Of a stretch of 35,345 bases of DNA, positions 4,052 through 26,656 are shown one piece after another. A model generated the notes under the pieces. It made no database searches. It was given only the letters and a program-made list of their open reading frames with translations, and was not told the DNA's origin. Source of the stretch: Mesaphorura yosii (Eukaryota; Arthropoda; Collembola; Poduromorpha; Tullbergiidae); the NCBI GenBank assembly GCA_009869945.1, contig WIXG01000586.1:1-35345 (forward strand), read 5' to 3'. Numbering within the stretch: the stretch's first letter is position 1; each line of letters opens with the position of its first letter. The translations under genes were made by a program, and so were the position numbers.

Positions 4052-5367
4052 ACGGGTTATGACTAAAAAACTTGCACTCTTTGCACGCGCCTATAACTCT
4101 TAACACATTTATTGCTAAAATTTGGGGTTAACATATTTAAACAACTGCTTAATGGAGCTGAATACTAGTACTAATGATTAATCGAATAGGGCCCTTCCTC
4201 AGCGCACTGGCGTAGTTTCTTGCGTACGGTCTCCAAAGTGGCTCGGACGATGTCCATATCAACTTTCTTAAGGCAAGATTTCACTCTACGGATAAGCTGG
4301 TCAGTGTTTTTGGCTGTCCAACCCTTGTCGTATACCAATTGATCCAAATACCCGAAGAAGTCTTCAATTGGCCTGGCCTGTGGCAAGTTTGTTGGGTTGT
4401 CCTCTTTCTCCACATCAGCGATGCTTTCAGCACGGAGAAAGTCGACCACAGTCTTCGCGTAATGGGACGACGCCTTGTCTGGCCAGAAGAGGTAATCACC
4501 TTCCGAGTAGTTGTCTCGAATGAATGGGACCAGAATCTTCAAACAATCCTCCCGGTACACGTGCTGGTTCACAGCGTTGTTGGACGGCACGAAGAAAGGT
4601 CTCGAAATGCCCCGTGGTGAAAGTGCGATCCAAAACATCACCTTCTTCTCATACTTCTGCTTGAAATAGTGCTTCAGTTCTGGAGGAGCATTTTCTTTAT
4701 CCCTGGATTAGAATCGGCGGTTGCCGGGTAACTTGCGATTTGCTCAGAGGGAAAAAATGTTCGTCGTCGATGATGAAGTCTTTCCCCTATGACTTCCGAT
4801 TCAATCGTCGACATTGCGTCTTGACCTTCAGGATTTGTTCGTCTGTATACTGAGGGGAGTTTGTTTTCTTGTAGCATCTGATGTTTGTCTTGTCCTTGAG
4901 TGTTTTACTTACGTAACTTTGTGAGCAGTTGAGTCTGGAAGCCATGGTCGACTGTGAAACCTTGTCGGAACCGTCGAATGCTTTCACCAGACGCTTCAGA
5001 CCTTTCTTCATCATAATTTGTGCCGGGCGGCCAGAACCCCGTTTCCTTTCCATCGAATCACTATCTTCGTGTCTTCTGATGAGATGGTAGATGGTTCTTT
5101 TGGACACGCCTTCAGCGTGAAAGTGAGACACGAAGTCCGATTTCCGGAAGTGAAGGTTAAGGGTAATTAGCCGTCCGACGTGCTGGCGGAGCTCTTCTTG
5201 TTTCGAAGCCATTTTTATGGGCCCACTCACTGTTTAAAACTAGAATATACACTACCTGGTCAAGCATTTTGTGAAGAACAAGAAAAGTACTTTTCCCAGG
5301 TGAAAAGTTGATTTTTGGTCAACCAGCGCGCTATATACTTCTGTGCAAGTTTTTAGTCATAATCCGT
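4052..5367 (-). mobile_element. Decayed Tc1/mariner element (DD37E-like), 1316 bp, TA target duplication
   Basis: Terminal inverted repeats begin ACGGGTTATGACTAAAAAAC at the left and ACGGATTATGACTAAAAAC on the complement at the right. They match over about 25 bases with one mismatch and one indel. TA dinucleotides flank both ends (4050-4051 and 5368-5369), the target-site duplication of the IS630-Tc1-mariner superfamily. Nearly the whole interior is a broken transposase on the minus strand. The insertion sits inside an older reverse-transcriptase remnant: reading across the single TA site rejoins the RT frame exactly at the residues just before its YLDD box. Confidence 0.9.
4171..5212 (-). 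pseudogene. Mariner-type transposase, inactivated
   Basis: Likely start at 5212 (MASKQEELRQHVG). An N-terminal helix-turn-helix pair follows (SKRTIYHLIRRHED, then a GSGRPAQ linker, then TMASRLNCSQSYVSKTL). The frame meets an in-frame TAG after QCRRLNRKS, continues to the first catalytic aspartate in FIIDDEHFF, and then shifts frame before KENAPPELKHYFKQKYEKK. The last part (4171-4641) is open and holds the second Asp in FWPDKASSHYA and the third acidic residue in RPIEDFFGYL. Thirty-seven residues separate the second Asp from the Glu, which suggests a DD37E group. At least one nonsense codon and one frameshift make it non-functional. Confidence 0.85.
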
Positions 5368-6555: not shown

Positions 6556-6563
6556 CATAAATA
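6556..6563 (+). promoter_or_regulatory. Possible TATA-like element of the chitinase gene
   Basis: CATAAATA lies 55-62 bases before the chitinase start codon, a distance that would leave a short 5' UTR. Sequence match only. Confidence 0.35.
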
Positions 6564-6617
6564 CCAGACAAAGCCCATGCTGCGCGTGTTCATAAAAAAA
6601 ATCCCACGACGCTAACA

Positions 6618-7991
6618 ATGGAGTCTCGTCTTTTGCAAATTTTCGCGCTCTTCACCTTCGCAATCGCGTGTGCTCACGCCCAAACTTGTACTGTCTCCTC
6701 CAATTACGACATTGACCTCGATGACCTCGCCGTGCACAACAATCGACAAGAATTCGAGTGCTGTGGCCTCTGCTCCGCGAACCCAGCGTGTCGTGGTTAC
6801 TCATGGAACAATTACCAAGGCGGAACATGTTGGCTTAAGGCTGGCGCTGGTCCACTCGTCCCCAACGATGGAGTGACGTCTGGAGTGGTCGAAAACGGTG
6901 GGGGTGACCCAAGCGACAAGAAAACTGTGTGCTACTTCACGAACTGGGCTCGTTATCGTCCTGGGGGCTCCGGTTACTTCCCGAATGACATTGATCCAAG
7001 CATTTGCACACATGTCCTCTACAGTTTTGCAACTCTCAACAGCCAAAGCCTCACAATCCAAGTGGCCGACCATCAGACAGACATTGTCGACGGTTACTAC
7101 CGCCAAGTCACTGCACTGAAGGCACAAGGAGTGAAGGTGAGCATTGCAATTGGTGGCTGGGGTGATTCTGCGGGTAACAAGTACTCACGGATGGTCAACT
7201 CCGCGTCGTCTCGAGCATCCTTCGTGACATCCGTGGTCAGGTTTCTGCAGGAACACAATTTTGATGGTCTCGACCTAGATTGGGAGTATCCCGTCTGCTG
7301 GCAAGGTGACTGCAACGCTGGACCCGCGTCAGACAAGCAAAACTTTGCGAATCTTGTGACTGAGCTTCGAGCAGCGTTCCGGCCACATGGATTTCTGCTC
7401 AGCGCAGCGGTGTCCGCCTCGTCCTCCGTCGCAGCACGTGCGTACGACATTCCAGTGTTGTCTGCGCAATTGGACTGGATCGGCCTCATGACATATGATA
7501 TGGCTGGTGGCTGGGACGGACGCACAGGATACCACAGCGCTTTGGGAGGGTCGGGAGCCTCAAACACACGGGCAACAGTGAATTATTGGTTGCAACAAGG
7601 TGCAGCAAGAAATAAGTTGGCCATCGGTGTCCCGCTCTACGGGCGTTCGTTTACACTTCAGAATCAGAATAACAACGGTGTTGGTGCGGCTGCCTCAAAT
7701 GGTGCTCCTGGTCAGTACACAGGTGAAGCAGGCTACATTGCGTATTTTGAATTTTGTACGGGTGGATGGACACGTGTGTACGCAGCTGGTGTGGGGCCAT
7801 ACACGTACCGTGCAAATCAATGGATTTCTTATGATGACACGGCCATCCTCACTGAAAAAGCGAATTACGTGAAGGGGGAGGGCTTGGCTGGTGCAATTGT
7901 ATGGGCAATTGATCTGGATGACTGGAAAGGAAGCTACTGCAATGCTGGAAGGTATCCACTTCTTCGTCATCTTCATAGCGCGTTACAATAA
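6618..7991 (+). CDS. Secreted GH18 chitinase with N-terminal PAN/Apple-like domain
   Basis: A 457-residue intronless gene. Residues 1-21 form a signal peptide ending AHA. Residues about 23-91 are a Cys-rich module (TCTVSSNYDIDL, ECCGLCSANPACRGYSW, GTCWLKAGAG) resembling PAN/Apple domains. Residues about 98-457 are a GH18 barrel, starting VCYFTNWARYRPGG, with the substrate-strand motif SIAIGGWG and the full catalytic motif DGLDLDWE (Asp216, Asp219, Asp221, Glu223). The end GAIVWAIDLDDWKGSYC is typical of arthropod group chitinases. It should hydrolyse beta-1,4-linked chitin by substrate-assisted retention, outside the cell. There is no CBM14 peritrophin domain at the C terminus, where arthropod chitinases usually have one. 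AATAAA at 8034-8039 follows the stop by about 45 bases. Confidence 0.93.
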   Translation: MESRLLQIFALFTFAIACAHAQTCTVSSNYDIDLDDLAVHNNRQEFECCGLCSANPACRGYSWNNYQGGTCWLKAGAGPLVPNDGVTSGVVENGGGDPSDKKTVCYFTNWARYRPGGSGYFPNDIDPSICTHVLYSFATLNSQSLTIQVADHQTDIVDGYYRQVTALKAQGVKVSIAIGGWGDSAGNKYSRMVNSASSRASFVTSVVRFLQEHNFDGLDLDWEYPVCWQGDCNAGPASDKQNFANLVTELRAAFRPHGFLLSAAVSASSSVAARAYDIPVLSAQLDWIGLMTYDMAGGWDGRTGYHSALGGSGASNTRATVNYWLQQGAARNKLAIGVPLYGRSFTLQNQNNNGVGAAASNGAPGQYTGEAGYIAYFEFCTGGWTRVYAAGVGPYTYRANQWISYDDTAILTEKANYVKGEGLAGAIVWAIDLDDWKGSYCNAGRYPLLRHLHSALQ

Positions 7992-14405: not shown

Positions 14406-16607
14406 ATGAAGGTTGTGTACTTGCTCCTGCTATGTTTGTGTTCTGTCGCTGCTGTCATCGAAGTCCCAATCAAGTCGTCAAGCTCTCTGTACACGTCTCA
14501 AGTTGGCCAACTTTTTCACAGTCTCTTCTCAGCAGACAGCTGTCACCTGAGCATCGCCGGAGAATTCAATCCAGCAGCAGCCGACTACGACCAAGACATT
14601 GAAGTGTACTTGTTCCTCCTTGATCAGGAGCTCGGTCACAGTCCAGTTCGCCTGCACACTGAATTCATCCATGGAGAAGTTGCGTTCAAAATATGGAGGA
14701 TGTGGACAATACCCGAACGCCTGGCTGCGAATATGACAGACATTCGCCAGTTCACACACTTCATACACTGTCATGTTGAGGTCATTTTGTTCATTGATCA
14801 ACTTATTAAGAGCCAGTGGGATGACATTGTGACACAAGTCATTTATCATGACATTTTGAGTCATGCTTCACCAGCATTGACTGTATTTGTGTTCAAGGCT
14901 GATGTATCTCTAGGTACAAGGCTCAACATCGTCGATGGAGTGTACTGGGTCCCTGGTTTTCAAGCTACTTGCCTAGAAGTAGTCCACAGAGAGAACGATA
15001 CCCAAATCAGCTTCATATCAACGTACCCGCCAAGGCAACATCCACTTCCGGTGGCGTCATACAGTTTTTCTGAGGCTACCACCGCCTTTAAGGCCCTGAA
15101 TAATTTATGGCATACGAAGCATAAAGATCGGGAGGGTCACTATGTCTTGGTATCCATCAGTCGTCTGGATGAGTGGCTTGGATTGAAAATCAGTGGCAGC
15201 GCTCCACGCTCAATTAGATTCTCCCGACACATGCTTCCGGCATGCGGTAACCGACCTGGTGGCACCGCAGTGGCTGTCCGTGAGTGCGTACAGTTGGAGC
15301 TCTTGAAAAGATTCAACTTTACTGGATGCCAGTGCCGGAGTGAATTTAGTATGAGACGTGCAATGGGGTTGGGATACATTGTTGGAAGTGACGTACTCAC
15401 TGCAGATGATCAGATGATATTCGACTATCACTATCAGGAGTACGTCACAGTGGAGGTCATCCCGTACCGGCTTATACTTGTGATCGACAAAGACCACATC
15501 ACAAAGATAAACATGATGGCTATTCTTAACTCTATGGACCTGGAAACGTGGGTTTGCAGTCTTCTGTCCGTAACTGGAATCTGTGTTTTACTCCTTCGAC
15601 ATCAGCAGTCGTCATTGGCAAGTATTGAAACCGTCAGCAACTTTGTTCACGCGTTTATTTCCCTTTTGTGGTTAGTCTTCGGCCATGGAGCAAAAGTCGA
15701 AACAAAAGCAGAAAAACGAAGATCAACGACATTGCTTCGAATTTTGCTCTCCACCTGGCTTCTGGCCACCGTGGTTCTCTCAAATGGGTACTCCGGCATT
15801 GTCACATCTCTCATGACCAAGGAGATCATTCCAGACCACGCACAGTCACTCGAAGAACTGAGCAACACGTCAACACCAATACCAATATTCTCTCTTTCAT
15901 TGACTTCACGTCAGTATTTCAATGGCACGAGGAAAACGCTACCTGACCGCCCTATCCTTTGGAGTGGACCACCCTCCTTGAAGTACTCCAAGATATTGGA
16001 CACTGTGAAGTATGTATTTTCTGGCAACGACTACGACGTAGAGAAAGGAGGCAGGTATGAAGACTTCCGCCGGGCTGCTGCATTGAGCCAAAGTCAAATC
16101 TCAGTGATTGGTGACAAGAGTCAACAGCGCCTGCGTGTTGGGGAGAACTTTGCACTTCTGGAGGGTCTTAGTTACGTGGCTTCGTTACAATTAGTGAAGC
16201 ATGGCCTTGAAATGGAGAAGCTAGTCGTTCTAGATATACCTGTCCCACCTTTCGTACGTACTGGGCAACTCGTAGTCTCTAGAAACTATCTGCATCGACT
16301 TCTAAAACCGGCGATGTATGGATTGATCGAGTCAGGGATCTACGAGCGATGGAAGCAAAACCGGGAAATTCAAATTGACATTAATTCCAGAAGGGCACGG
16401 AAATTTTATTATCCTGATGCGGAGCACGAAAAGACATTGACACCAGCATTGTTTAGGCTACCACCGCCAGCACAACCCCCACGTCACGGGTCAATGCAAT
16501 TGTACAGGATTCCATTCACATTATTCGCGATCATGATCAGCACAGCGACTGGTGTATTTCTTATGGAAATTTTATTGAACGCCTGCAACATGTCATTCAA
16601 AAGTTGA
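14406..16607 (+). CDS. Divergent ionotropic receptor (chemosensory iGluR family)
   Basis: A single exon of 733 residues. An in-frame ATG at 14361 exists, but 14406 puts the signal peptide MKVVYLLLLCLCSVAA at the terminus. The N-terminal region is variable and glycosylatable. A split ligand-binding domain surrounds the channel: first helix about 382-398 (WVCSLLSVTGICVLLL), pore loop about 413-430 (FVHAFISLLWLVFGHGA), second helix about 445-466 (LLSTWLLATVVLSNGYSGIV) and last helix about 700-725 (LFAIMISTATGVFLMEILL). The SNGYSGIVTSLMT block after helix two matches the SYTANL-type region of iGluRs and IRs. It is a ligand-gated cation channel subunit of chemosensory neurons, likely working with a co-receptor. 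Intronless divergent IRs are typical of species-specific expansions. The ligand is unknown. Confidence 0.85.
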   Translation: MKVVYLLLLCLCSVAAVIEVPIKSSSSLYTSQVGQLFHSLFSADSCHLSIAGEFNPAAADYDQDIEVYLFLLDQELGHSPVRLHTEFIHGEVAFKIWRMWTIPERLAANMTDIRQFTHFIHCHVEVILFIDQLIKSQWDDIVTQVIYHDILSHASPALTVFVFKADVSLGTRLNIVDGVYWVPGFQATCLEVVHRENDTQISFISTYPPRQHPLPVASYSFSEATTAFKALNNLWHTKHKDREGHYVLVSISRLDEWLGLKISGSAPRSIRFSRHMLPACGNRPGGTAVAVRECVQLELLKRFNFTGCQCRSEFSMRRAMGLGYIVGSDVLTADDQMIFDYHYQEYVTVEVIPYRLILVIDKDHITKINMMAILNSMDLETWVCSLLSVTGICVLLLRHQQSSLASIETVSNFVHAFISLLWLVFGHGAKVETKAEKRRSTTLLRILLSTWLLATVVLSNGYSGIVTSLMTKEIIPDHAQSLEELSNTSTPIPIFSLSLTSRQYFNGTRKTLPDRPILWSGPPSLKYSKILDTVKYVFSGNDYDVEKGGRYEDFRRAAALSQSQISVIGDKSQQRLRVGENFALLEGLSYVASLQLVKHGLEMEKLVVLDIPVPPFVRTGQLVVSRNYLHRLLKPAMYGLIESGIYERWKQNREIQIDINSRRARKFYYPDAEHEKTLTPALFRLPPPAQPPRHGSMQLYRIPFTLFAIMISTATGVFLMEILLNACNMSFKS

Positions 16608-16877: not shown

Positions 16878-16972
16878 AAAGTTTAGCAAAGGTTTATTCA
16901 AGTTATAAATTCGTTGAAGTTTTAGCAACGAATTTATTGAAATATTGAATAAATTTTGCATCCACAGTTTGT

Positions 16973-19208
16973 TCATGTAAAGTAATTATTATCCGGAAAA
17001 CCGTAACGCCACAGGGCTGTTGTTGGGTACTGCGGATACTGCGGACGCTGAAGCCGCACCAGACGAATCTCTAAAACCTCTGTATCGGGTAGCGCTCTCT
17101 GAGCTGGATCGATCTGCAAGCATCCGTTCAGTGTCTTCTCGTAGTCGTAGTACTCGTAGCAGTTTGGAACTCGTGTTGGGACAACGTTCGCCACACCGAT
17201 GTCTGCTACAGTCAATCCCTCCAGCCATTGTCTCTTAGCTTCGGGGTCGTTGACCATCTCCGGCTCAATGACACGCTGCAGTGGAGTCTTTCCACAGAGC
17301 ATGAAGTACAAAATGCAGCCGAGAGACCAAACGTCCGCAGGCGGTCCAGCCATATCCACACGATCCAAGAGCACTTCAGGCGCCATGAACACGAGCGTTC
17401 CTCCAATGCCAACTGGATGCTCAGCCAATGCGTTCTCTTCAAGCGCCTCAACCGTCCACGCCGTGCCAAAGTCCACCAGTTTCAGTGTCTCTCCGAACCA
17501 CACAAAATTCATGTGTTTCAGGTCGAGGTGCACGATACCGTGTCCATGGATGCAGCGCACCGCTTGCACCATCTGAGTCCACATTGACACGAGTTGACCG
17601 TTAGTCAGGCTTCCGCCATTGTTCAGTATTCGAGATCGTATGTCTTCACCACCGCATTCCATCAGAATTCGTCCACACGGTCCTCCGTCGGTGTGGGCCT
17701 CGAATAGCTCCCATTTCACAAGCTGAACGACGTGCCTGGATGCCGAAGGTCGCTTGAGGCGTCCCAGGATATGAACTTCCTGTAGAAAAGAGGATCGCAG
17801 GCGCTCAGCCTGCTGCTGGTCTCTTTGGTTTCGACGAGCCTGACGGAAGTTCTGCACGAAAGCGGCGACACGTGCGCGAGTTCGCTCCGCCACGGCCTGT
17901 GCTCGAAGATATGGGTCGTGTTCTTCGCCGTCCAGAGCTCCAGTTGAGTCTGCTTCCGCGTCTGGATCTTGGTCGATAACTCTCTGGGCTAGAATGAGTG
18001 CGATTCTTTCGTCAAACACTTCCGCATCTCTTTCAGCTTGACCTTCCGGTGCCGGCGCCGTGAAGCTGACCTCTTTCAGAGCATAAGCTCGACTCTGTAC
18101 CTTGACCAGCCAGACCGAGCCAAAAGCACCGCGTCCAAGGAGTCGATGGCGCCTGTACGCCTGTCCTTTGATAACGATGTCCTGTTGCGGCTCTTCACCG
18201 TCAGCTTCCCCGTTCGGTGGTAGCGGATTAGGGTTCTTTAGGATTCCTCGAAGAGGGCCCGCAGGGCGACGGCGTTGTTGCCGTCGGACGGGAGATGGAG
18301 ACCTCCGCCTAGGACTTGGTTGGCGAGGCGCGCTCACGTGTCTGGCCGGATGCTGAGCCTGAGGACGTGCTTGTGGGTCCGGGAGTACTCTCAGCACGAA
18401 TTCAGTGCCCCATTTCTGAGAATGCGTGAGAAGGGAAAAAGCTTAATTGGAAAAGGTTGTCAAAGTCTTAAGGGTGGCTGTGACTCACAAGTGCCACGAT
18501 GAGGATAAGAAGGGGCACGTACAATTGAAGAAGTGCCTCTGGCATTCCGTTCTTTGTAAACACCCAAAACCCCATCCAACGGGTCCACGCCGCTGGAGAC
18601 ATTCTAGTCAATCTTGTTCCCTGCAAATAGAAACGGACCGAATCTGGGTACATGTACCGGCGAAGTACCGCCGCCTCTTCCACCGAAAGGAGCGCCACGT
18701 GCGTCACAAAGTGGAATTTCTTATTAGTCAACGTAAACAGCCGTGAGTCGGGTTTGGGAAGCGGTTTGTCTCTTCCTTCGCTCTCGATGAGCACCATTGA
18801 GTACCTTGCGGTGTCCGCCTGGCGGAGCTTCCTTTCGAGGGTGCACCCCCAGCCAGCGTCTCTCTCGGAGTGCGAGACGAGCAGATGTGCGAAGGAGTCC
18901 GGTTCGGGTTTGGGCTTGAGTTTGGAGCACGCGTGGCGCGGGGAACCTTCGACCAGGAAACCTTTTCCGTCAGCCCAGACGGCAGGACCCACATTCGTGA
19001 CGGGTACAGTGTTGGCGATGAGGAGACTTGTCTCGATTTGTCCCGTCCGCTTCTTCATCACTGTGATATTCAATTCGTAACCGCCCTTCTTTCCTGCATT
19101 AGAGTTGTGAGGAAGGAGTGGAGGGCCGAAGAGGAGAAGAAGGATTTCTAGAGCAGGGACGACCAGAAAGGCGCACTGTAGCAGGCTTGGAAGCCTGATA
19201 GAGGCCAT
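16973..19208 (-). CDS. PA-like domain / transmembrane / TTK-like protein kinase fusion
   Basis: Exon 1 (19208-18489, 240 codons) encodes a signal peptide, a PA-like luminal domain with the RNF13/Goliath pattern GKGFLVEGSPRHACSKLKPK, and a helix ALLQLYVPLLILIVAL at about 224-240. Exon 2 (18415-16973) follows a 73-bp phase-0 intron. It encodes a basic Pro/Arg-rich linker and a kinase: Gly loop LLGRGAFGSVWLV (near 334), Lys354 in YALKEV, Glu453 in FLQEVHIL, HLDLKHMNF (Asp538), DFG (Asp555) and DVWSLGCILYFMLCGKTPL. The kinase most resembles TTK/Mps1 (ILMECGGEDI, GIVHLDLK). About 100 charged residues are inserted between the Lys strand and the Glu helix. No methionine precedes the kinase core in exon 2, so the kinase depends on exon 1 for translation. 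The predicted 720-residue type I membrane protein has its kinase in the cytosol. Minus-strand AATAAA lies at 16933-16938. Confidence 0.8.
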
Positions 19209-21305: not shown

Positions 21306-21841
21306 ATGGCATCACTTTCAGCACTCGCTGGCACCTCTGGTCGTGACCTGGCTCTGGTCCTGATCGCACTGACCATGACCATGGTCCCCGGGGCGGACGC
21401 TCGGTGCACCACTTCAGCCTGCTCCGCTGCCTGCAATCTCGTCGATAAGAACAACGGAGCGGCCGGAAGCTGTGATCCTTCGTACGAGAACCCTTTGTTT
21501 GGAAACGATCCGAGTTGTATCTGCGATGCATGCCCGCTTGGCGACGTAAGCCACTTCGAGATTGTATGTTTGTTAGGCTAGCAGTTTGCTAATTGCTTCC
21601 CCCGTTTCAGCTTTTGGACGGTGTCAACCTGAACGTCCTTGAGCTCACTTGCAGGGGACCGCTTCTGCAGACCGATTGCAGCGACTGCCCTCAGTCGAAT
21701 GCGAACACCTTGTACGTGCCACATATCTGCACAGTGAAGCCACCGGGAGGACCACTCACAGAATTGTGTGTCTGCATGTGCGCCAATATCACCTCAACTG
21801 TGGAGACATTCGAGACATGCCCGTTGGCTCTTCTCGAGTAA
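21306..21841 (+). CDS. Secreted cysteine-rich protein, family unrecognised
   Basis: Two exons, 21306-21545 and 21611-21841, with a 65-bp phase-0 intron (GTAAGC to TTTCAG); the junction reads CPLGD/LLDGVNLN. The 156-residue product has a hydrophobic leader (LALVLIALTMTMVPGADA) and a mature part with about 15 cysteines, seven in exon 1 (CTTSACSAACNLV, SCDPS, CICDAC) and eight in exon 2 (CRGPLLQTDCSDC, HICTV, LCVCMC, TCPL). The odd cysteine count leaves one free or in a dimer. No known fold is recognised. Secretion and disulphide bonding are the only safe inferences; cuticle, gut or defence roles are all possible. Confidence 0.7.
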
Positions 21842-22003: not shown

Positions 22004-23311
22004 TCAAAATGTCACGAGCAGCGACATTGCATTCTGCAGGATGAAGGACAGTACTTCCAAGAAGACTGCTCGTGTGGCCAATGGGAACAGTGTACCCACC
22101 AATATTTCCAGGGGGCGCAGTGCCCGAAACCACTTCTGGTCGTGAGGAGTTCGGTCAGTAGCAGTATCACGAATGCCGGAACTCAAAAACCGGACAGCAG
22201 CCTCGCGCACGTCGATTGCCTGATGGAATATCAGTTGCATACAGGACACGGCCACGAGTTCTTCGATTATGGTCGTCAGCGTATACAGAGGATGTAGACT
22301 CTTCCGGAGGCGGATGACGATGTAGATGGCAGCCATAGCTAACCCAGAACACGCAACGAACCCAACGACCAGAGGGCCGGCAGCGGCTTGGACGAACGTG
22401 ACATGCATCACCTGCAGTCGCTTGTACTCGAGCTGCTGAACTTGGCGTCCAGGATTTGTCCGTGTGACATCTTTAAGGAGCTGGTGCAACTGAGAAGTAT
22501 ACGCTAGGTATGTATTCGAGACTGATGTCAGAAGAATCAAGTCGAACTGGATGAAGTACCAAGCAGCCGCACACATACACGCATTTCCCAAAGTGGACGA
22601 TGTCTGGAACATTTGGAACATTGTGCCATTCTGCAGGAAGTAGAACAGGCAGAGTGCCAGTATGGCTGGAACTGACATGGAGACAATGACGTACCCAAGC
22701 ATGACAATTGTAGCAGACCGGATTTGAGCCGGCTCATGACCAGGCACCGCTTCACACGTCTGTACGTGGGCGACAGACATTTTGAGAACCATACGCAGCG
22801 TGGCCAGATACTTGGCATGGTTGACGCAAGCGAATAGTTGGACGATGCCGGCAAACAGCAAGAAACAAATCATATTCACGGAGTTGAGCAGCTCCTGGCG
22901 GAGGATACTGGGTGGTGCTTGCGCCAGGAACTGGACCATGCGGGTAACTAGGCAGACCTTGCCACTAAGATAGGCAACCGTTCCTAACAGGTACAGTTTG
23001 AAATGGGTTGGGGCACAGAACTCGAGTCTTGAACCTGCGAGCACTAGAGACGAGAACGGGTGGCCAGTGTCTCGCAGGTGGAATGGCGTCAGGTGTCGGT
23101 AGAGTGTGAGACTTGACATGAAAGGCAAGGAGAATGACCACACACTGAACCGGACGACATCTAAGTTGGTGAGGGAAGATGTCCACCATTTTTGGACGGC
23201 CTCAGTGCAGGGGGAGAGGAAGTTGGAGAGTCTGGTGTGAAGATTCGACCTTGCCACGCCCTTCACCTTGAACAGGAGCAACGCAAGGAAACTGATGCGC
23301 TTTTCAGACAT
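22004..23311 (-). CDS. Gustatory-receptor-like 7-TM chemoreceptor, intact
   Basis: A single exon of 435 residues. Several long hydrophobic segments (LYLLGTVAYLSGKVCLVTRM, MICFLLFAGIVQLFACV, IVMLGYVIVSMSVPAILALC, AGPLVVGFVACSGLAMAAIY) and the C-terminal block TRAVFLEVLSFILQNAMSLL fit the insect gustatory-receptor family (7tm_7). In that family the last helix carries a TYxxxxxQF-like end, here divergent. Such receptors are inverted 7-TM ligand-gated channels of taste or contact neurons. It is the intact member of a three-copy tandem block; the next copy at 23689-26386 is very similar over its full length. No known ligand group (sugar, CO2, bitter) can be assigned. Confidence 0.75.
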   Translation of the reverse strand: MSEKRISFLALLLFKVKGVARSNLHTRLSNFLSPCTEAVQKWWTSSLTNLDVVRFSVWSFSLPFMSSLTLYRHLTPFHLRDTGHPFSSLVLAGSRLEFCAPTHFKLYLLGTVAYLSGKVCLVTRMVQFLAQAPPSILRQELLNSVNMICFLLFAGIVQLFACVNHAKYLATLRMVLKMSVAHVQTCEAVPGHEPAQIRSATIVMLGYVIVSMSVPAILALCLFYFLQNGTMFQMFQTSSTLGNACMCAAAWYFIQFDLILLTSVSNTYLAYTSQLHQLLKDVTRTNPGRQVQQLEYKRLQVMHVTFVQAAAGPLVVGFVACSGLAMAAIYIVIRLRKSLHPLYTLTTIIEELVAVSCMQLIFHQAIDVREAAVRFLSSGIRDTATDRTPHDQKWFRALRPLEILVGTLFPLATRAVFLEVLSFILQNAMSLLVTF

Positions 23312-23688
23312 TTGGAGTCAGAGATAGGAATGGGGTACCTGAACCCAGACTTTATTCTGATAGTTAATAGGAATATGTAAAAATACTATTACAACCTGAC
23401 AATTCACGATCACAATTACACAAACACCTTCAGATGTACGTGTGAATTGAAATTGAAACATATACTCAGAAATCGAATCCAATGTTCACACGAACTACAA
23501 ATTACAATTTGCTATATATATAGAAATTGAATGCCAGGTTTTTAAACTGAATTAAATTCCCAATTCTACGGATGAGAATGAGAATGATATTTTTTATTAT
23601 TTTACTTGATTTATTCACACCACTAACCCTTTTTTTAGAGTAGAAATTGATGCAAAACTTATAGATTACAAGTCTAGTATGTAGTAAG
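23312..23688. other. AT-rich spacer between two chemoreceptor copies
   Basis: No open frame of interest. Probably holds the promoter of the 22004-23311 receptor and the 3' UTR of the disrupted copy. Confidence 0.4.
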
Positions 23689-24009: not shown

Positions 24010-25307
24010 CAGGATTAGTCACCCTATTCCGGACAGACGGCGTTGCGGTATAACTCGAGTGTTTATGAACCAAAAAGCGCTGGGTCTTCGAATACATGTT
24101 CTTTTAACTTATAGCAACTAGTATTTCGGTTTAAATTCTTGTTTAACATCAAAATGCCTAAAAAATTGAGTGCTGAAGTGGAAGCTCAAGTTCGGACACT
24201 TTCCAGGGAAGGATACTCGATTAGGACCATCAAAACCAAGTTGGAGAAATCTGGAACAAGTCTCGGGAAGTCAACCATCGCCGATATTATCAATTGCATC
24301 GGTCAAAGACGAAATCACAGACTTGTTGGCCTTCCCACACCAGAAAAGTTTCAACCTCGTAAAGTACGGACAAACCAGCTGATCAAGAAAATTGACAAAT
24401 TCACGGACAAGGAGAATCCTCCGAGCCAAAATGAAATGGCGAAGATGTTGCGAGTGAGTCAGTCAACTGTGGGAAGGGCAATTAGAGATGACCTGAATGG
24501 AAAGTATCGAAGAAAAGTCAAAGTTCATCAATTGAAGGAATCTCACATCGCAAACAGGAAGACCAATGCAAGAAAATTATATGAAGGGCATCTGGCTGGA
24601 CCAAAGTGTGAGTTCGTCGCGACATTGGATGAAGCATGGATATATTTACATGATTGCGGTGGGAAACGAAAAATATATGTACAAAAGCCAGGAAAACCAG
24701 ATCCAGAATTCGTGTGTCCCAAATCAGAAAACTTTTGTGAGAAGTTTATGGTTGTTGCAGTTTTAACTGGACGAGGACCACTCCCACTAATTCGAGTACC
24801 AAAAAATACCAAAATTAACTCAGATTACTATATTGAGGATGTCCTGAAACCAATTTTAGAAATCGAAATTCCAAAATTGTACGGCCAGGACACCTGCAAA
24901 GTTTTCTTACATCATGATGCTGCACCATCTCACACATCAAGAAAAACAGAAGCCTACGCGAACGAGTTGCACAGCAGAACTGGAATAACCGTCATACCGA
25001 ACCCCCAGATTCCAGTAAAGTCTCCTGACATCAGCCCCTTGGACTTCTTTGGCTTTAGATATTTAAAACAACGACTTAATCTTCGACGAGCAAAAACCAT
25101 CAAGGGAGTTTGGAAACTCGCCAAAGAAGAGTGGAATGGAATTAGCTCAGAAACAGTGACAAAAGTGTACGATTCATGGAAGCGCAGGCTGAGACTGGTT
25201 ACAGAAAGGGATGGAGGCCATATTGAAAATAGTAAAAATATTCACCGTCGTAAATTGAACATCTGAGGTACGTTTTTGAACTGTCCGGAATAGGGTGACT
25301 AATCCTG
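24010..25307 (+). mobile_element. Intact DD41D Tc1/mariner element, 1298 bp
   Basis: Perfect 27-bp terminal inverted repeats start CAGGATTAGTCACCCTATTC and continue CGGACAG on each side. TA duplications flank them at 24008-24009 and 25308-25309. One uninterrupted transposase fills the element. Perfect ends and an open transposase point to a recent, possibly still mobile copy. It sits inside a gustatory-receptor gene on the opposite strand. Confidence 0.95.
24139..25266 (+). CDS. Mariner-family transposase, DD41D group
   Basis: A 375-residue open frame; the real start may be the second methionine at 24154 (MPKKLSAEVEAQV). Two helix-turn-helix modules lie at about 10-60 (GYSIRTIKTKLEKSGTSLGK) and 85-120 (NEMAKMLRVSQSTVGRAI) and bind the inverted repeats. 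The catalytic triad shows as ATLDEAWIYL, VFLHHDAAPSHT and SPLDFFGFRYLK, with 41 residues between the second and third Asp. That spacing is the DD41D signature known from the rosa/Visitor type. It should carry out cut-and-paste transposition into TA. All three acidic residues are present and no stop interrupts it, so activity is possible. Confidence 0.93.
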   Translation: MFNIKMPKKLSAEVEAQVRTLSREGYSIRTIKTKLEKSGTSLGKSTIADIINCIGQRRNHRLVGLPTPEKFQPRKVRTNQLIKKIDKFTDKENPPSQNEMAKMLRVSQSTVGRAIRDDLNGKYRRKVKVHQLKESHIANRKTNARKLYEGHLAGPKCEFVATLDEAWIYLHDCGGKRKIYVQKPGKPDPEFVCPKSENFCEKFMVVAVLTGRGPLPLIRVPKNTKINSDYYIEDVLKPILEIEIPKLYGQDTCKVFLHHDAAPSHTSRKTEAYANELHSRTGITVIPNPQIPVKSPDISPLDFFGFRYLKQRLNLRRAKTIKGVWKLAKEEWNGISSETVTKVYDSWKRRLRLVTERDGGHIENSKNIHRRKLNI

Positions 25308-26386
25308 TAGAAGGCAGCCAGGGCTAAACCGGAGCACCCTGCGAACCCTACCACAAGTGGCCCGGCAATGGCGTCCACGAATGTGGTATGCAACACCTGC
25401 AACCGCCTGTACTCCAGCTGAACTTGCCGCAGGGTCCTCTGGACGGTCTCCGCCTGGGGGTTGATGCCCTTTCGGGTGATTGTGATATCCTCCAGGTGGT
25501 ACACCAGCAGTGTCGTGTACGTGATGTAGTTGTTCGTGAGGGATGCAACCATTAACAAATCGAACTGGACCACGTACCACATGGCGATACAGACGCAGAG
25601 ATTGGCCCATGTTGAGTATGTCTGGAACATTTGGAATATGATGCCTCTCTGAAGCAAGTAGAACACGCCGATGGCCAGCTGGCCGGGAGCAGACACTGCG
25701 ACCAAGACATAACCGAACATGTATATCATCGCAGGCCGGATTCGTTTGGGATGGCCAACGGGTACAACTCTGCACGCTTGCACATGGTCGAGACACATCT
25801 TCAGAACCATGCGCAGCGTGGCCAGATACTTGGCATGGTTGACGCATGCGAATAACTGCACAATGCTGCTAAAGAACAGAAAACAGATCAAGTTAACGGA
25901 GTGGAACAGTTCACGACTACGGGTACTGGGTGGGGCTTGAGCCAGAAAATGGATCATGTGCATGGTGAGGTAAAGTTTCCCCAAGAGGCAGGCCCCGGTT
26001 CCGACTAAGTACAACCGGAAATGGTGCGGAGCCTGGAAGCTCTGTCCAAGGCCTGGATCGTGACCTTGTGTCGGCAGCTGAAATGGAAATAGGTGGCCAT
26101 ATAAGGTCTGGGCTGTCCATATAGGCAGGGAGAAGGACCATAGGAGGAAACGCGAGACTTCCACGCTCGTGACGGTGGACGTCCGATATTTGCGAACCAC
26201 TTCGGTCAAAGGCGTCATCGGGATTCGTGACATGGTCGGAGCTAGTCTGAACGAATTTGTACTCCAACCGATCAGAATGGCAAACAACGGGAGAAGGTCC
26301 CAGTCTTCCCATTCCCAGGAAGGAGAAGGCTCAAGAATCTTTGAATTTAGGTCATGGAAAACTTTAACTGCGTAAATGGCTTTCAT
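25308..26386 (-). pseudogene. Gustatory-receptor-like gene copy 2, 5' part cut by the transposon
   Basis: Start chosen at 26386 (MKAIYAVKVFHDLNSKI), because similarity to the intact neighbour begins shortly after it; the frame extends up to 26605. It runs through FLLWSFSLPIWTAQTLYGHL, FACVNHAKYLATLRMVLKM (identical block in the intact copy) and GPLVVGFAGCSGLALAAF, where the element is inserted. With one TA kept, the frame passes straight into the 3' part at 24009. The gene was therefore intact until the insertion. The truncated product lacks the last helix and cannot form a normal receptor. Confidence 0.85.
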
Positions 26387-26656
26387 ACCAACACAGTTCC
26401 CCGACTTTTGGCCAATTTTCTTGTCCATGTCAATTGGAATTGCGATAAATATTTTGAAATTAGGACTGACATGTCTCAGCAACATTTTCCACTGAAGCGG
26501 TGTCATTGGACCCTTTAGATTTGTAAAAACTTTTAGGAACATGATGGTAATTGCCCAACACAATCTTACAAATGGGATTCCATGATTGCTACATTTTACA
26601 CACACAATACTTTTAAATTAGATTGCGATAGCTCCTATTAAACAAATACGATCCCG
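26387..26656. other. Spacer upstream of receptor copy 2
   Basis: Minus-strand frame remains open to 26605 (MCVKCSNHGIPFVRLCWAI), but the text has no counterpart in the intact paralogue. It could be extra N-terminal sequence or chance. Confidence 0.3.

Follow-up and report, generated by a model that had tools for sequence, protein, structure and literature searches.

The window, the whole stretch of DNA analysed here (35,345 nucleotides), is the entire contig C586 of a Mesaphorura yosii assembly of 93,006,257 bases in 1127 contigs. On its minus strand, two exons join to encode a predicted protein of 720 residues, arranged as an N-terminal hydrophobic segment, a PA-like domain predicted to be luminal, one helix, a basic linker and a kinase. 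The features of this gene are as follows.

18489..19208, minus strand: exon 1, from the start ATG at 19208 through the transmembrane helix, 240 codons (720 nt); placed by the ATG and by paralogues
19128..19184, minus strand: N-terminal hydrophobic segment, residues 9-27 (19-residue Kyte-Doolittle mean 2.44), either a signal peptide or a signal anchor
18573..18965, minus strand: PA-like core, residues 82-212 in the alignment with this genome's own PA domains (hhalign, shuffles, Cys positions)
18927-18929, minus strand: Cys94, matching the PA Cys pair
18843-18845, minus strand: Cys122, matching the PA Cys pair
18489..18545, minus strand: transmembrane helix, residues 222-240 (Kyte-Doolittle mean 2.0)
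18416..18488, minus strand: phase-0 GT-AG intron of 73 nt, GTGAGT...TTCTCAG (from the sequence; donor matched in C676)
16973..18415, minus strand: exon 2, basic linker and kinase, 480 codons plus stop (stop at 16975-16973)
18149..18415, minus strand: basic linker, residues 241-329 (by composition)
17093..18148, minus strand: TTK-like kinase domain (Pfam, PDB, residues, tree)
17780..18073, minus strand: insert of 98 residues separating the beta-3 Lys from the alpha-C Glu (80 residues in C515, 73 in C567)
16933..16938, minus strand: AATAAA, a possible polyadenylation signal 35 bases past the stop (from the sequence)
16893-16898, minus strand: second AATAAA, 75 bases past the stop (from the sequence)

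Canonical splice sites, both in phase 0, had been proposed in a preliminary description, and the coordinates, the boundary sequences and the phase are as claimed there. By eye, a further short intron apparently lies in the window's gene near 21550-21608. Elsewhere in the window, an intact frame at 14406-16604 (plus strand) with a ligand-gated ion channel domain (Lig_chan E 3.7e-9) resembles an ionotropic receptor, and a GH18 chitinase domain is joined to a PAN domain at 6561-7988 (plus strand). Two mutually similar long hydrophobic frames at 22007-23317 and 25271-26617 (both minus strand) match no Pfam family above the cut-off and are presumably gustatory-receptor-type proteins. Mariner-like transposase sequence was recognised by eye as a single frame at 24115-25266 (plus strand) and in two frames at about 4171-5233 (minus strand).

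Paralogues and the unity of the gene

We searched the assembly separately with exon 1 and with the kinase exon. The kinase search returned 16 matches at E≤0.001, with C339, C676, C515 and C567 at 7.1e-80 to 3.2e-31; the exon 1 search (E≤10) returned five, namely itself, C515 (4.1e-8), C494 (1.5e-6), C567 (1.4e-4) and C42 (0.48). On both C515 and C567 the luminal part, the membrane segment and the kinase lie in one open frame (731 codons with the first methionine at codon 38, and 653 codons with the first methionine at codon 9, respectively), with N-termini longer than that of the window protein. C676 harbors a decayed relative in which PWVRWLGI, an in-frame stop, a hydrophobic segment and a GTAAGT donor occur in the frame of the kinase; its W-x-R-W-L pre-membrane motif, segment and donor occupy places equivalent to TRWMGF, the helix and GTGAGT in the window, and most of the PA part was not seen there. 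C339 is a kinase fragment, and C320 holds kinase pieces in shifted frames. PA-like exons followed by a strong helix are present on C494 (L016:4185-4988), a contig with no match in the kinase searches of the assembly, and may represent a stand-alone relative or a remnant.

These copies bear on whether exons 1 and 2 are one gene, as had been proposed, or a gene for a PA-TM protein and a neighbouring gene for a cytosolic kinase that have been wrongly joined. Two observations would suit the latter: i) C494 has a PA-TM-like frame in which no kinase was detected, and ii) the two exons of the window are in separate frames. However, because C515 and C567 hold the same order in single uninterrupted frames, the fusion is not an artefact of the gene model, and the separate-gene model was rejected on this ground. 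Further evidence against wrong joining comes from the donor at the matching place in C676 and from the window itself: read without splicing, the exon 1 frame meets a stop after only eight further codons in the intron, and exon 2, as the preliminary description held, has no methionine ahead of the catalytic core, the first being residue 492, inside the kinase. Two wrongly joined genes are thus very improbable, and a small gene family with the PA-like/transmembrane/kinase order is real.

The luminal domain and membrane topology

Sequence models of the PA domain do not detect the luminal part. Pfam returned no PA match for exon 1 at E≤1, the sole listed family being a sub-threshold herpes model (0.046), and Pfam PA likewise matched none of the paralogues of exon 1; a genome-wide PF02225 search found six places, with exon 1 and its paralogues not among them. 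We compared an alignment of those six PF02225 stretches with an alignment of four luminal sequences (exon 1, C515, C567 and C494) using hhalign, which gave a score of 40.8 (probability 71.7, P 3.5e-5, 115 columns) against 19.6 for the best of 200 column shuffles and 12.2 for the reversed control. As single rows against the PA alignment, exon 1 scored 37.3, and C515, C567 and C494 scored 20.2, 20.3 and 17.5, the latter three at shuffle level. Beyond the N-terminal segment the sole cysteines are Cys94 and Cys122; C515 and C567 each have a Cys pair aligned with them, as does a PA-TM gene on C215. C42, the weakest of the exon 1 matches, is one of the six PA stretches (PF02225 E 6.4e-5) and has RING pieces downstream. 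The resemblance of the luminal part to RNF13 and Goliath ligases, put forward earlier, is therefore borne out by profile comparison, shuffles and the Cys pair, and not by Pfam PA.

Other comparisons were less informative. The luminal part of C567, used to query the assembly at E≤10, returned C515 and, weakly, C494, and did not recover exon 1. Exon 1 alone gave short weak matches in the PDB (best E 0.045), and an AlphaFold prediction of its residues 20-240 from the single sequence (pLDDT 37.5) was uninformative. The fusion could be real and its luminal part an unrelated or newly evolved ectodomain rather than a PA domain; this would fit the silence of Pfam PA, a PDB profile search in which the luminal alignment found no match, and the shuffle-level scores of three of the four luminal rows taken alone. 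Yet the alignment score is twice that of the best shuffle, exon 1 by itself comes close to it, the Cys pair is matched, and the order of segment, PA domain and helix is the same as in the RING genes. We consider a non-PA ectodomain unlikely, and a PA-like domain the better description.

The window protein has a single helix after the PA-like domain, as PA-TM-RING proteins do. The mean hydropathy of the corresponding segment is 2.05 in C567 and 3.2 in C494 and is weak in C515, at only 1.24; a hydrophobicity scan of C515 flagged a stretch of the kinase N-lobe in place of the membrane segment. Around the window helix, the net charge of the 15 residues that follow is 0 and that of those before is +2. 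These flanking charges give no orientation, and the topology is deduced from homology together with the basic linker farther from the helix, which exon 2 supplies, as previously described, with 18 Lys/Arg and 7 Asp/Glu. By analogy, the PA part would be luminal and the kinase cytosolic.

Two further PA-domain genes, on C846 (L047:1225-2371) and C260 (L048:1237-2216), continue into a membrane-like segment and a J-like stretch (in C846, DnaJ E 8.6e-4, below the cut-off; in C260, by eye only), with HPG instead of HPD. The J-like stretch may be a further effector carried on the PA-TM plan.

The kinase domain and its affinity to TTK

Exon 2 matches Pfam Pkinase at E 1.3e-33, and the catalytic residues are present (Gly loop 334, Lys354, Glu453, Asp538, Asn543, Asp555 and APE 585). 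Human TTK was the best PDB match of the window kinase (1.2e-23; next kind PLK3, 7.8e-16) and TTK also that of a profile built from a five-row kinase alignment (3.9e-38 vs 2e-22 for the next); the C567 kinase alone was nearer to DAPK1 (1.3e-17) than to TTK (1.5e-14). We built a midpoint-rooted tree of 17 rows with several long branches, including ten other kinases of the same genome. Five PA-kinases form their own group (99/96), and this group joins human TTK and the TTK encoded on C167 of the same genome (96/97). The complete TTK-like kinase of the preliminary description is thereby substantiated, and the domain falls in the TTK branch.

Affinity to TTK does not amount to orthology: the canonical TTK on C167 stands separate from the PA-kinases, its kinase split over several exons while each PA-kinase domain lies in one. 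The H-x-DLK-x-x-NF pattern is found in both TTK/Mps1 and the PA-kinases; the latter differ in being membrane-anchored, as predicted, in the 73-98 residue insert from the Lys to the alpha-C Glu, and in their one-exon kinase. TTK/Mps1 carries an N-terminal TPR and kinetochore-targeting region. In the window protein no TPR was found with Pfam at E≤1, and the PA-like domain and helix stand there instead. We take the activation-loop Thr676 of TTK to have no clear counterpart in the window protein.

Seven pairwise comparisons of the copies gave synonymous differences (pS) of 0.64-0.80, which is near saturation, and nonsynonymous differences (pN) of 0.29-0.53. The disrupted or incomplete appearance of C676, C339 and C320 could indicate a decaying or non-signalling family, with a window copy that is young, unexpressed or catalytically dead. 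However, the frames of the window, C515 and C567 are open, with the Lys, Glu, Asp, Asn and DFG in place, and pN is below pS in 7/7 comparisons. A decaying or non-signalling family is accordingly quite improbable.

Relation to known systems and a model for the fusion

As defined in PMC8834447, PA-TM-RING proteins comprise a signal peptide, a PA domain, one helix and a RING-H2, and PA-domain variants mislocalise RNF13 and RNF167 from endosomes. The window protein has in common with these E3 ligases (Goliath/Godzilla, RNF13, RNF167, ZNRF4) the N-terminal hydrophobic segment, the PA-like luminal domain with its Cys pair, the single helix and a predicted cytosolic effector. It differs in that a kinase sits at the position of the RING-H2 and in that the PA sequence has diverged below Pfam detection. 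No RING family was found in either exon by Pfam at E≤1, in keeping with the earlier proposal that the kinase takes the place of the RING. Judged by sequence, the window protein is neither a PA-TM-RING protein nor a TTK orthologue.

The animal receptor kinases known so far use a few ectodomain-kinase combinations. Receptor Ser/Thr kinases of the TGF-beta receptor type and receptor tyrosine kinases consist of an ectodomain, a single helix and a cytosolic kinase; the window protein departs from both in its PA-like ectodomain and TTK-branch kinase. We know of no receptor-kinase family with this pairing, and the established role of TTK is in the mitotic checkpoint.

In a word-limited protein database search, the full fusion gave 27 matches from 8000 scored candidates, all of which carry a Pfam kinase entry, and PF02225 does not occur among the domains listed for them; the luminal region gave no match at E≤10 among 1135 candidates. 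As a control, the TFIP11 of the window returned 230 matches, including animals, and among the matches listed (best 120 of 230) the closest named were the springtail Allacma fusca (46%, 807 bits) and then Periplaneta (41%, 666 bits). This places the source probably in Collembola, and a mite (Tyrophagus) was discarded as the source. Since the full-fusion search missed even animal TTK, absence from the protein database is weak evidence. A viral origin was rejected, two viral-contig scans (15 and 35 pattern matches) having confirmed no relative, and literature searches of limited reach did not find a PA-TM-kinase. The earlier statement that no established animal family has this order stands insofar as none appeared in the protein, viral or literature searches; given their limited reach, it does not extend to uniqueness. 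The PA-TM-kinase is an undescribed combination within the material searched, and we do not claim that it is unique.

Taken together, the locus is very likely a single gene whose product is a membrane kinase of PA-TM layout, with a TTK-derived kinase replacing the RING. Sequence comparison establishes the fusion, the order of its parts, the PA-like homology, the TTK affinity and the intact catalytic residues; the best reading of the product is a putative endomembrane or surface receptor-like kinase. In the model we propose, the PA-like domain would face the lumen or the cell exterior, the single helix would cross the membrane, and the TTK-derived kinase would lie in the cytosol at the position of the RING in PA-TM-RING ligases. 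By analogy with RNF13 and RNF167, the PA part may capture ligand or cargo, or set an endosomal location; placement in endosomes or at the surface, together with partner binding, would be expected on the PA-TM-RING precedent. Clustering could then gather the kinases for proximity-driven trans-phosphorylation, and clients near the membrane would be phosphorylated rather than ubiquitinated.

The probable origin of the family is the fusion of a PA-TM module with a TTK-like kinase that was processed (intron-poor), followed by duplication and partial decay. Whether this swap of effector, from ubiquitin ligase to TTK-derived kinase, founded a class of receptor kinases that is lineage-specific and gated by ligand or cargo is a proposition on which we find the balance even. 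The possible PA plus J-like genes of the same genome suggest that the PA-TM chassis accepts several effectors. If the proposed swap is true, the family would amount to a natural experiment in PA-domain sensing, since the output would be phosphorylation in place of degradation, and it would illustrate clearly how effectors can be exchanged on a conserved membrane module.
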